The position numbers were made by a program, and so were the translations under genes. This document shows, one piece after another, positions 16,065 through 20,781 of a DNA stretch of 26,946 nt. The stretch is from a virus. Where the stretch lies: IMG/VR virus record IMGVR_UViG_3300047997_000001, positions 1-26,946 of that record. The stretch is one strand, 5' to 3'. Position 1 is the first letter of the stretch. Every line of letters starts with the position of its first letter. Under the pieces are notes generated by a model. It saw nothing but the letters and a program-made list of their open reading frames with translations. It ran no database searches and was not told where the DNA came from.

Positions 16065-16544
16065 GTGGCAGAAAATAAAGAGTATCCGAATCCCTGGATG
16101 TATTGTGGGAGCGTCTTTGACGGGTCTCTTATTGGGGACAACTATGGTTTTGTTTACAAGATTGCCTGTAGCACCACCAACCGTTCCTACATCGGTAGAA
16201 AATACTTCTGGCAAAAACGAAAGCCTAGAGATACTGGTCAAACTAAGAAGCGGCGAAGAGTTACAAGTGAAAGTAACTGGAGAAACTACTATGGAAGTTG
16301 TCCAGAACTTAGTGATGATATTAAAAAATATGGACGGGAGTCTTTTGCTAGAGAAATCCTCTCCTTACACACCACACCAGGACGAGTCAACTACGAAGAG
16401 ACCCGCCAACTCTTCTTACACGGTGTTCTGACGGAAAGCTTGACAGATGGCACCCCTGCCTACTATAATAGCAACATCCTCGGACGTTACTACAGGAAAG
16501 ACTATTTTGATTTTGGAAACAATTCTGGCATTGACGCCTGCTGA
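16065..16544 (+). CDS. GIY-YIG-type phage endonuclease
   Basis: This 159-residue protein has a GIY-YIG-like core: YGFVYKI (27-33) and YIGRKYFW (42-49) as the two motif strands. A basic stretch follows, then NWRNYYGS (71-78), a helix FAREIL (94-99), and NYEETRQLF (109-117) with the likely catalytic Glu (about 111). C-terminal YYNSNILGRYYR fits the same phage group. Such free-standing enzymes are related to homing endonucleases and often sit near ribonucleotide reductase genes. The start is uncertain: GTG 16065 is 15 nt from the nearest GGAGG, while two ATGs (16057, 16063) in another frame are better placed. The gene contains a sigma70-type promoter near its 3' end. Confidence 0.75.
   Translation: MAENKEYPNPWMYCGSVFDGSLIGDNYGFVYKIACSTTNRSYIGRKYFWQKRKPRDTGQTKKRRRVTSESNWRNYYGSCPELSDDIKKYGRESFAREILSLHTTPGRVNYEETRQLFLHGVLTESLTDGTPAYYNSNILGRYYRKDYFDFGNNSGIDAC
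16440..16469 (+). promoter_or_regulatory. consensus sigma70 promoter (TTGACA-18-TATAAT)
   Basis: Both hexamers are perfect: TTGACA 16440-16445 and TATAAT 16464-16469 with an 18-nt spacer. It lies inside the GIY-YIG gene. A transcript from about 16476 would cover the hydrolase, the three tRNAs and the two small proteins after them. It implies recognition by the host housekeeping sigma factor. Confidence 0.65.
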
Positions 16545-17415: not shown

Positions 17416-17621
17416 TGATTAATCTAGACGCTCGTTATCACGAATACTTACATAGTAACAAATGCTTTACTATCGATGGAGCATGTGAAAAAGTAATCGC
17501 CTACGGGTGGACAGATGATGGAGTGACCATTAATGGGTATTATGTCTTGACAAAGAACTATAAACTCCAGTATAATATGAAAGAACAATGTATCTCGATG
17601 CAGCAACGCATCGGAGTGTAA
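17415..17621 (+). CDS. small hypothetical protein (68 aa)
   Basis: This 68-residue protein (MINLDARYHEYLHSN...MQQRIGV) is rich in Tyr and contains a beta-type stretch VIAYGWTDDGVTINGYYVLT. I recognise no family. It starts at a TAATG overlap. Its 3' third contains the consensus promoter for talC, so its codons there are constrained by two roles. Confidence 0.6.
   Translation: MINLDARYHEYLHSNKCFTIDGACEKVIAYGWTDDGVTINGYYVLTKNYKLQYNMKEQCISMQQRIGV
17547..17576 (+). promoter_or_regulatory. consensus sigma70 promoter (TTGACA-18-TATAAT) for talC
   Basis: TTGACA 17547-17552 and TATAAT 17571-17576 are perfect hexamers with an 18-nt spacer, the same spacing as the promoter at 16440. The predicted transcript start is near 17583, about 50 nt before talC. 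It suggests early expression by unmodified host RNA polymerase. Confidence 0.68.
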
Positions 17622-17635
17622 TCAACCTACTGAAT

Positions 17636-18283
17636 ATGAAAATTTTTCTAGACACTGCTGACTACGAAGCAATTGCTGAACGCTATACGACTGGTCTAGT
17701 TGATGGTATCACTACAAATCCTACACTAGTTCGTAAGTCTGGTGTGGACTATGTGGAGTTCATTAAAACTCTAGCAAATAACTTTGCCTTTGAAAGCATT
17801 TCTGCTGAAGTAGAAGGTGAGTCTTGCTTTGAGATGCTTACCAATGCTATTAAGTATCGTGATATTGGTGAGAATGTTACGATCAAACTGCCCCTCACTG
17901 TAGAGGGTTTGAAGGCATGTAAAGAACTCACTGCTCAAGGTGTAGAGACTAACGTTACGCTATGCTTCAGCGCCGCTCAGGCAGTGATGGCAGCGAAGGC
18001 AGGTGCCACATACATCTCACCTTTCGTGGGTCGTATGAATGACAACTCACTCAGTGGTGTTGAACTTGTTCGTGCTATCTCTGGTTTGTATTGTGCTCAT
18101 GGTGTTCGTACCAAGATCCTTGCTGCCAGTTTGAGAGATGTCCACCATGTCTCTCGCTGCTTGATGTATGGTGCTAGTGTAGTTACATTGCCACCTGCTG
18201 TATTCGACAAAATGTATAACCATGTGCTGACCGATTCTGGTCTGGCAATTTTTGAAAAAGATTTTAAGGAGATCAATGGTTGA
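17636..18283 (+). CDS. talC: transaldolase TalC
   Basis: This is a 215-residue TalC/fructose-6-phosphate aldolase-type transaldolase. MKIFLDTADYEAI and VDGITTNPTLV are the family N-terminus. The Schiff-base lysine is K84 in NVTIKLPLT, and GVETNVTLCFSAAQA and YISPFVGRMND follow. In cyanophages it replaces host TalB activity and steers carbon into the pentose phosphate pathway for NADPH and ribose. The ATG at 17636 is chosen because the N-terminal motif begins there; earlier in-frame starts lie in the previous gene. It is preceded by a consensus host-type promoter and overlaps the next gene by 8 nt. Confidence 0.96.
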   Translation: MKIFLDTADYEAIAERYTTGLVDGITTNPTLVRKSGVDYVEFIKTLANNFAFESISAEVEGESCFEMLTNAIKYRDIGENVTIKLPLTVEGLKACKELTAQGVETNVTLCFSAAQAVMAAKAGATYISPFVGRMNDNSLSGVELVRAISGLYCAHGVRTKILAASLRDVHHVSRCLMYGASVVTLPPAVFDKMYNHVLTDSGLAIFEKDFKEING

Positions 18284-18479
18284 AGTTCCGTTTGATGAAT
18301 TTGAAAAAGACTTCGATGCTTACATGGATCGCATTGAAGCAGGCGAAAGCTTTATAGTTCGTAAACCAGATGGAACTGCTGTTATGGCAGTCCCTGCTGA
18401 TGAATACAAAGAACTAACAGATCAGGTTACTGATACTGATTGGGAAAATATGATGACAACACATGACGATGCTAGTTAA
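18276..18479 (+). CDS. Phd/YefM-like antitoxin (orphan)
   Basis: This 67-residue protein (MVEVPFDEFEKDFDAYMDRI...) has the Phd/YefM fold pattern: an N-terminal strand and helix, then EAGESFIVRKPDGTAVMAVP, which is the characteristic hairpin, then DEYKEL. Family members bind DNA as dimers and neutralise a toxin through the C-terminal tail. Here the tail is short and acidic (TDTDWENMMTTHDDAS). No toxin gene follows; the next gene is a membrane protein. AAGGAG lies just upstream of the ATG. It may neutralise a host toxin or act as a repressor of this operon. Confidence 0.7.
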   Translation: MVEVPFDEFEKDFDAYMDRIEAGESFIVRKPDGTAVMAVPADEYKELTDQVTDTDWENMMTTHDDAS

Positions 18480-19757: not shown

Positions 19758-20063
19758 ATGAGCGTAAGATCACAAGTTCAAGTTGCTGAAGAAGCACTCC
19801 GTCAAGCACTGATTAACGCTCTTGCTGAGGGAGATGAAGATTGTTTGTCCGAACTGTTTACTCAGTATCAAGCAATCAGTAATCTGAATAAAAAAGTAAA
19901 TGACTTAACTCATTTTGCTTATGATTCAAATTACAATTTCAATCTGTCGTCTGATTATCTCCCTCGTCCTGGGGGAGATTTGGATAATTTTGATAATGTT
20001 ATTGATTTTGGTGGTAACATTAGTATCAATACTAATAGTGATGATAGTATCACCTTCAGTTAG
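19758..20063 (+). CDS. small acidic hypothetical protein (101 aa)
   Basis: This 101-residue protein has a helical N-terminal half (VQVAEEALRQALINALAEG and a following helix), then a low-complexity tail rich in Asn, Asp and Ser (NFDNVIDFGGNISINTNSD). I recognise no family. It starts 9 bases after the previous stop with GAGG as ribosome site. The tail resembles flexible ends of virion proteins, but nothing decides its role. It is followed by the structured non-coding stretch. Confidence 0.6.
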   Translation: MSVRSQVQVAEEALRQALINALAEGDEDCLSELFTQYQAISNLNKKVNDLTHFAYDSNYNFNLSSDYLPRPGGDLDNFDNVIDFGGNISINTNSDDSITFS

Positions 20064-20241
20064 TCTCGGTAAGACTCTAAACTAGCCCTGGTGCGGGTGA
20101 TTACGTTGCCGCTCAGTTTCTTACTTCTGATAAAAAGTAAGTGGTGGTGCCAAAACCCCTTCCGTGTGGTTGGTTCTTGTTTACAACTGAAACAAACAAG
20201 TGGCGTGCATGTGCCTTAGGGGATTGACCTCCCCTTTTTTT
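20064..20241 (+). ncRNA. structured non-coding stretch ending in a terminator
   Basis: These 178 nt hold no convincing gene but several stems: AGTCT/AGACT close to the 5' end, CTTACTT/AAGTAAG with an 8-nt loop (20120-20141), CTTGTTT/AAACAAG with an 11-nt loop (near 20177-20201), and the terminator at 20218. It could be the 3' untranslated part of the preceding mRNA or a small RNA. Two tiny frames share one reading phase: GAGDYVAAQFLTSDKK ending at 20140, and a 28-codon frame from GTG 20141 to 20227. No known RNA family is recognised. Confidence 0.35.
20218..20241 (+). terminator. rho-independent terminator
   Basis: AGGGGA (20218-20223), loop TTGACC, and TCCCCT (20230-20235) form a 6-bp GC-rich stem followed by seven T residues, ending one base before tRNA-Gly. 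It is the strongest terminator in the window and ends the talC unit or the RNA in front of it. Confidence 0.85.
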
Positions 20242-20313
20242 GCGAATGTAGTTCAGCGGTAGAACGCTATCCTTCCAAGTTAGATGTCGTCGGTTCAAGT
20301 CCGATCATTCGCT
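20242..20313 (+). tRNA. tRNA-Gly (TCC)
   Basis: The acceptor is GCGAATG/CATTCGC, the D arm GTTC/GAAC, the anticodon loop CTTCCAA (anticodon TCC, reads GGA), the T loop TTCAAGT, and the discriminator T as expected for glycine. One T-T mismatch lies in the anticodon stem. No CCA is encoded. It abuts the terminator, so its own transcription start is unclear. Confidence 0.9.
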
Positions 20314-20328
20314 TTTTAAAATATAGAT

Positions 20329-20781
20329 ATGAAGATAGGAGATATACAAGCACATAAGTATCCAGAAGCAGCAGATATTAATCCTGTTCTCCATAAAATT
20401 ATATGTGACAACAGTGTTATCAGTGATAAGGGAGCATTGATGACACAGTGGGATTGTTTTGATGTTAAAGAATTTAATGTTCTTGCCGACTACGCAAAGA
20501 GTTTGCTTGATAAACCAACCAAGTTAGTTGACTTATGGGGTCAAGTATATAACGAGGGACATTATCAAACCTTTCATAATCATATACACAATGACTGGTC
20601 TTTTGTTTACTATGTTAATACACCACCAGGGTCATCTCCAATTGTATTCAGGGGAATGAGCAAGAGGATTAAACCTGTTGCTGGTATGATGCTATTATTT
20701 CCTGGGTATGTGGATCACTATGTTCCTCCTAATAAAGGTGTTGGACGTAGTATAGTAGCAGGCAATCTTGTATATTCATAA
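20329..20781 (+). CDS. Fe(II)/2-oxoglutarate oxygenase-like protein (150 aa)
   Basis: This resembles the small phage and bacterial family of putative 2OG-Fe(II) oxygenases. Features are LWGQVYNEGHYQTFHNHIHN (69-88), then WSFVYYVNTPPG, then MMLLFPGYVDH130YVPP and GVGR140SIVAGN. Candidate iron ligands are H87 and D89 (HND; H83 and H85 are alternatives) and H130, with R140 ten residues later in the place that binds 2-oxoglutarate. The length suits a single double-stranded beta-helix. Its position directly before the fibre block suggests it might hydroxylate a virion protein. A late-promoter motif overlaps its stop codon. Confidence 0.75.
   Translation: MKIGDIQAHKYPEAADINPVLHKIICDNSVISDKGALMTQWDCFDVKEFNVLADYAKSLLDKPTKLVDLWGQVYNEGHYQTFHNHIHNDWSFVYYVNTPPGSSPIVFRGMSKRIKPVAGMMLLFPGYVDHYVPPNKGVGRSIVAGNLVYS

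Follow-up and report, generated by a model that had tools for sequence, protein, structure and literature searches.

A wcaG RNA of a T4-like cyanophage as part of a candidate 3'-terminal pseudoknot array

Introduction

A structured RNA that lies between two genes of a phage raises the question of which of its neighbors it belongs to, the genes that follow it or the genes that precede it. The locus studied here lies in an IMG/VR virus record, of which we analyzed a stretch of 26,946 bases (the window). The first 25 kb of the window match Synechococcus phage ACG-2014i with 95% identity over 84%, and given this similarity, we take the window to come from a T4-like cyanophage. A first-pass annotation had singled out positions 20064-20241 as a structured, apparently non-coding stretch with several stems and a strong terminator, had noticed in it a 28-codon frame reminiscent of attenuation, and had proposed that it could be either a phage small RNA or a terminator-linked regulatory leader.

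As reported below, the element is related to the wcaG RNA. This family was described in PMC2864571 as a 5'-UTR element, possibly a riboswitch, of downstream exopolysaccharide or high-light genes, and later papers repeat the 5'-UTR or riboswitch assignment (PMC9602691, PMC9964418, PMC10665884, and PMC12197685). PMC2864571 also calls regulation by structured 3' UTRs highly unusual in bacteria. We compared the window element with its relatives in other phages and asked on which side its conserved partners lie.

Results

The Rfam search suggested in the first-pass annotation returned wcaG (RF01761) above the family's cut-off (Table 1). The model aligned at full length (1-98 of 98), with several non-standard pairs where its first hairpin aligns in the window, and its consensus line is without the first-helix pseudoknots described below. 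By score, the window element is a member of wcaG, and it is an expanded form. It resembles the published family (Weinberg et al. 2010, PMC2864571) in the sequence and helices of modules 1 and 2 and in its occurrence in T4-like cyanophages; it differs in having a third module and a terminator outside the model, in its first-helix pseudoknots, and in its tie to an upstream operon. It differs as well in what follows it, given that the window has tRNA-Gly, then a 2OG-Fe(II) oxygenase, and then a tail fibre gene 3' of the array in place of exopolysaccharide or high-light genes. We treated that gene context as an association and not as part of the definition of the wcaG RNA. In the window, the oxygenase gene (20329-20781) separates tRNA-Gly from the tail fibre gene, whereas in ACG-2014i the tail fibre gene directly follows the tRNA-Gly region.

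Matches to wcaG above the cut-off were present in 27 of 28 cyanophage genomes and the element had a single locus in each of the 28, figures that speak to copy number and not to prevalence, since these genomes were picked from similarity matches to the element itself. Two of the 28 had two adjoining matches, which are parts of one longer array. A strict exact-pattern scan gave two-module arrays in cellular genomes at 0 of 90 loci, and a pattern this strict leaves hosts possible.

The full element occupies positions 20062-20241, between the ORF at 19758-20063 and the tRNA-Gly(UCC) gene at 20242-20313, all on the + strand. The start proposed at first pass had to be moved from 20064 to 20062, which falls within the upstream stop codon UAG (20061-20063). 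An apparently non-coding, structured stretch does extend from the stop of this ORF to 20242, and a terminator-like hairpin with a pairing probability of 0.85-1.0, followed by a U run, lies at 20218-20235, both as first described. With the upstream stop codon at one end and a terminator at the other, the array qualifies at minimum as a structured 3' UTR. The upstream gene group consists of a transaldolase, a Phd-like antitoxin, phrog_481, and small proteins. Two sigma-70-like promoters, each a perfect 12/12 with a spacing of 18, were seen at window positions 16440-16469 and 17547-17576, both lying within coding sequence or at its border.

Table 1. Coordinates of the array, its predicted parts, and neighboring genes in the window
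Feature	Position	Strand	Details
Phd-like antitoxin gene, upstream gene group	18252..18479	+	phrog_375 E 1e-25; PF02604 E 1.8e-6, 28.0 bits, below cut-off 29.8
phrog_481 small protein (gp206 / T4-GC 250 in some phage records)	19461..19748	+	phrog_481 E 6.2e-45
phrog_604 gene, function unknown, last protein gene before array	19758..20063	+	stop UAG 20061-20063 overlaps first helix of array
Rfam wcaG (RF01761) match	20059..20155	+	50.1 bits, cut-off 42; spans modules 1 and 2 only
Module 1, candidate pseudoknot	20062..20096	+	first helix AGUC 20062-20065 / GACU 20073-20076, then UGGUGCGG
Module 2 (type B), predicted H-type pseudoknot	20113..20151	+	S1 UCAG 20113-20116 / CUGA 20127-20130; UUU 20117-20119; UCAG-UUU-CUUACUU-CUGA-UAAA-AAGUAAG (20113-20141)
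Module 2 S2, predicted	20120-20126 / 20135-20141	+	CUUACUU / AAGUAAG; tail UGGUGGUGCC
Module 3 (type Z, terminal), predicted H-type pseudoknot, outside Rfam match	20167..20211	+	S1 UGGUUG 20167-20172 / CAACUG 20184-20189; GUU; UGGUUG-GUU-CUUGUUU-A-CAACUG-AAAC-AAACAAG (20167-20200)
Module 3 S2, predicted	20176-20182 / 20194-20200	+	CUUGUUU / AAACAAG; tail UGGCGUGCAUG
Terminal hairpin and U run, intrinsic-terminator type	20218..20241	+	AGGGGA-UUGACC-UCCCCU; loop motif common to relatives
tRNA-Gly (UCC)	20242..20313	+	directly after U run

Read beside 17 phage relatives, wcaG corresponds to two units of a longer array. Every unit starts with a 5' strand and a short loop rich in U. A second helix comes next, about 7 pairs long with U-A pairs at its end, followed by the first helix's 3' strand, a loop rich in A, the closing strand, and GUGG. 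We predict that the window element holds tandem H-type pseudoknots, at least two and probably three, followed by an intrinsic terminator directly before tRNA-Gly; module 1, in which the first helix alone was identified, is probably a pseudoknot too. The internal modules of the arrays found end in the tails GUGGUGCGG (type A), GUGGUGGAU or GUGGUGGUG (type B), and GUGGUGGAG (type C). The terminal tail GUGGCG (type Z) stands last in 222 listed arrays of at least two modules, and there are also arrays without Z at the end, either fragments or arrays of looser type. The number of modules varies among relatives, the terminal module is distinct, and modules 1, 2, and 3 of the window differ from one another in helices and tails. 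The position of the U-rich first loop beside the U-A pairs, together with the A-rich last loop, suggests that the modules could form triple-helix contacts, a feature of other compact pseudoknots.

The folding energy of the element is ordinary (z = -0.89; 36 of 200 shuffles fold as well), and the argument for structure must therefore rest on comparison. For the last module, the nested ensemble assigns the second helix a probability of 0.02, yet the module's helices are kept across relatives. The covariation analysis used modules selected through sequence anchors and their second helix; the first helix (S1) played no part in the selection. In terminal modules with a middle of 8-9 nt, S1 was fully paired in 79 of 81 distinct sequences (paired cells, 0.991; shuffled mean, 0.802; shuffled maximum, 0.846), and the variants included CUGG/CCAG (46), CAGG/CCUG (10), CCUG/CAGG (9), CCAG/CUGG (9), and CUAG/CUAG (4). 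Full pairing was likewise seen in 40 of 41 type B modules (0.994 versus a shuffled maximum of 0.933) and, for the helix of the first-type module, in 168 of 200 distinct relatives (0.920 versus a shuffled maximum of 0.751). Type A modules, with 3 pairs, were fully paired in 56 of 81 cases (0.856 versus 0.811). The S1 of the module-3 type reached 0.942 against a shuffled maximum of 0.936, a thin margin, with one U.U mismatch in 9 of 39 segments, a count based on 39 of 47 anchored segments after eight judged unrelated by eye were left out. Type-C first modules gave no S1 support in the register tested (0.417 versus a shuffled mean of 0.360). Finally, an alignment of 13 phage sequences had 99.6% of cells paired and both partners changed in 7 of 19 pairs, neither of which was reached by any of 500 shuffles, and the signal was lost when the partners were slid.

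The covariation analysis called for at first pass was thus positive and gives strong support to the predicted pseudoknots. The stems first noticed do belong to a real structured RNA; the conserved structure, as judged from these comparisons, is a row of pseudoknots and not the plain minimum-free-energy stems. We also considered chance folding beside an ordinary terminator, which the folding energy leaves open. Given the covariation and the Rfam match above the cut-off, we rejected this explanation and regard it as exceedingly improbable.

The genomic position of the array was examined in 180 arrays of at least two modules ending in Z, with identical copies removed (133 clusters at 90% identity); most were gathered by motif scans, so that the class frequencies given here differ from those in nature. 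A same-strand ORF of at least 60 aa stopped at the 5' edge of the array (-60 to +75) in 144 of the 168 arrays with 400 nt upstream, compared to 438 of 1680 random positions, and the upstream stop codon often lay inside the first module. Such an edge stop was lacking in 24 of the 168, and in about nine of these, judged by eye, a tRNA gene precedes the array. A phrog_481 homologue was found within 1.6 kb upstream of 125 of the 180 arrays, and every downstream class included such arrays. Among downstream families, the most frequent accompanied 49 of the 180 and was nearly confined to one class.

Two sets of loci were fetched by a neighboring protein. Among 80 loci fetched by the phrog_481 protein alone, 68 had array modules at most 2.2 kb downstream on the same strand, 11 had none, and 1 was too short; no modules were found in 262,746 nt upstream or in 519,808 nt of the opposite strand. 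At three loci without an array (L560, L562, and L563), a promoter-like TTGACA ... TATACT stands right after phrog_481, as if the array had been replaced. Among 80 loci fetched by GDP-mannose dehydratase (gmd), a classical downstream gene, 40 had an array within 600 nt upstream. The 70 gmd loci with at least 1.5 kb upstream comprised 25 with array and phrog_481, 10 with array only, 12 with phrog_481 only, and 23 with neither, and thus 10 of the 35 gmd-adjacent arrays with long flanks were without phrog_481 in the flank examined. In 10 of the 12 gmd loci with phrog_481 but no adjacent array, an array lay between phrog_481 and gmd with other genes intervening, which argues that the array holds its position after the upstream gene as the genes downstream are gained and lost. 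These comparisons place the array at the upstream stop codon and, at the level of gene order, tie it to the upstream gene. The association with downstream genes is real but secondary.

We next turn to what follows the array. The window hairpin is of the intrinsic-terminator type, with 6 pairs (4 of them G-C), a loop of 6, and six further U. Downstream sequence was long enough for classing in 176 arrays, 4 further arrays being too short; 83 ended in a hairpin with a U run, 65 were followed by a tRNA, 15 ran straight towards coding sequence with neither hairpin nor tRNA, and 13 had a hairpin without a U run. Six of these 13 (L231, L237, L239, L160, L371, and L377) proved on reading to be tRNA-linked; the tRNA pattern missed them, and they are counted here as hairpin. 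The window belongs to the tRNA-linked subclass and has a good U run. Relatives differ in the tRNA that follows the array (L231, L237, L160, L371, L377; L182, L147), with two quite different tRNA-Gly, or tRNA-Leu, in the same place, while the loop YUGACC stays. Downstream partners as a whole vary and include tRNA-Gly, -Leu, and -Pro, gmd, epimerase, glycosyltransferase, oxygenase, and hli.

A promoter (at least 9 of 12) was detected in 69 of the 83 terminator-type arrays, compared to a shuffled mean of 9.95 and maximum of 14, and in 58 of 70 after clustering at 90% identity. The -35 box lay within the terminator hairpin itself in 64 of the 83, with a spacing of 17 in 62 and TATAAT in 52. Composite terminator-promoter sites numbered 144 in 9.1 Mb (both strands), of which 113 had an array tail at most 95 nt upstream; the sequence searched consists of loci enriched for arrays, and these counts do not represent a genome-wide rate. 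In L016, L266, L284, L313, and others, the terminator loop just after the array bears the -35 box of the next promoter, and TATAAT follows the U run. In most terminator-type relatives, a predicted new promoter therefore overlaps the terminator, and this arrangement could possibly serve as a terminate-and-restart relay. The tRNA class had a promoter in 3 of 65 cases, and only 19 of its 65 hairpins were followed by at least 5 T in the next 8 nt. With a U run of this kind in so few hairpins of the tRNA class, and with neither hairpin nor tRNA in the 15 arrays that lead directly to coding sequence, a 3' end is not obvious in these cases.

The results on both flanks bear on the published view that wcaG is a 5'-UTR cis-regulatory element, perhaps a tandem-aptamer riboswitch, which in the window would act by terminator read-through into tRNA-Gly and later genes. 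The published assignment itself, the terminator between the array and tRNA-Gly, the strong conservation of the loops, and the 15 of 176 arrays that coding sequence follows directly are all consistent with this view, and a putative antiterminator could form between ACCCCU at 20155 and the terminator's 5' arm. However, the array tracks the upstream operon while its downstream partners vary, there is mostly no space for a promoter of its own between the stop codon and the array, and where the terminator hairpin contains the -35 box, the downstream gene would be expressed mainly from a transcript that lacks the array. A 5'-UTR reading is hard to hold for this terminator-promoter class, given that the main downstream transcript would start after the array, and overall we consider the published view unlikely. 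The arrays that run directly into coding sequence are the hardest to reconcile with a 3'-end reading; in them, the array may act as a leader.

For the same reasons, namely that most terminator-type relatives have their own promoter after the array and that the array accompanies the upstream operon, the terminator-linked regulatory leader proposed at first pass found no support. The 28-codon frame exists, starting at GTG 20141 and ending in the terminator loop, but its length is not conserved: the homologous frame ranged from 5 to 65 codons in 56 module-B arrays, and only 3 of the 56 had 28 codons. The attenuation reading lost its basis with this variation, and a leader peptide or attenuator, for which a conserved leader frame was sought, was rejected.

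Discussion

In this study, we found that a wcaG RNA of a T4-like cyanophage is part of a longer array with covarying pseudoknot helices. The common denominator of the arrays is their place at the end of the upstream unit, and we therefore read the element as a 3'-terminal pseudoknot array of a conserved cyanophage operon, which would serve as a 3'-end block. We hold the chances of this interpretation, which draws on sequence comparison, to be evenly balanced. Transcription would enter the array from the upstream genes, the array would fold, and the 3' end of the RNA would be set at the terminator. In tRNA-linked relatives without a U run, the 3' end could instead be made by 5' processing of the tRNA, possibly by an RNase P cut. 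The compact pseudoknots would then form a 3'-terminal block, leaving a long-lived end on the operon mRNA or a released array fragment during infection. The biochemical role might be 3'-end stability, a released RNA, or a decoy; of these, the simplest proposal is 3'-end protection, and the most daring is a released RNA bound by a protein partner. The phage small RNA suggested by the first-pass annotation is possible in this sense, as the element could be released as one.

A related possibility is that the array acts in trans: excision or termination would yield a stable small RNA whose several copies of the fold bind a host or phage protein, as a decoy or as a mimic of a type III antitoxin. The single locus in each of the 28 phage genomes, the several modules per array, and their varying number are in keeping with such a role, as is the Phd-like antitoxin gene in the same gene group (its cluster occurs near 88 of 180 arrays). 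Precedent comes from type III antitoxin ToxI and the pseudo-ToxI repeats of phage PhiTE (PMC3475682), which are tandem H-type pseudoknots whose repeat number changes by recombination, the PhiTE copy being phage-borne; the window shares with them a pseudoknot array followed by a terminator. On the other hand, no toxin partner is known for the array. No toxin was found by PADLOC among five neighboring proteins, or by Pfam among the four window neighbors scanned around the element and the Phd-like antitoxin gene. The window modules are also much diverged, with distinct internal and terminal types, unlike the near-identical 36-nt ToxI repeats. Given that no toxin was found nearby, we do not file the array under type III antitoxins, though they are its nearest analogue by form, and a trans-acting role appears doubtful to us.

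The most far-reaching version of this idea would make wcaG a multi-pseudoknot effector RNA and not a riboswitch. A single-locus modular array would then originate in the 3'-terminal part of a small operon for counter-defence, one that also encodes a Phd-like antitoxin, and would target a host protein in trans, either as a decoy or as an RNA antitoxin. Like pseudo-ToxI, the array would diversify in module number and in the sequences of its first helices, and its terminator would double as the -35 box of the next promoter. We rate this proposal as quite improbable.

The 3' placement of the array also brings to mind retroregulation, in which the 3' structure would be a regulated nuclease target, not a block, and would control decay of the upstream mRNA. 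Phage lambda offers an example in sib, a structure on the 3' side that governs how the upstream operon mRNA decays and is a target of RNase III. The window array shares with sib the character of a structured 3'-UTR RNA; its structure is a different one, without a long perfect duplex of the kind that RNase III targets. According to PMC2864571, there is a phage in which upstream genes are known to be regulated from their 3' side. Taken together, we think retroregulation of this kind quite unlikely.

Two further RNAs described in PMC2864571 invite comparison with our preferred reading of a 3'-terminal block. The STAXI motif is a pseudoknot repeated two or three times; it differs, in a comparison made by description only, in lying near DNA-handling genes and in having UUCG tetraloops. 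The L17 downstream element is structured too and lies in a 3' UTR, that of the gene to which it may belong, but its structure differs. The array works like no tested system among those we compared. In the open-access literature, we found no description of a wcaG pseudoknot array, of its 3' placement, or of the terminator-promoter overlap; the figures and supplement of PMC2864571, which may show the pseudoknot, lie outside this scope.

In summary, the wcaG RNA has for 15 years been regarded as a candidate riboswitch acting on its downstream genes. If it is instead a 3'-terminal array of the upstream operon, the search for its ligand and target genes would have been aimed at the wrong side. The overlap of the terminator hairpin with the next promoter would represent a compact relay in these phages, one that is directly testable.
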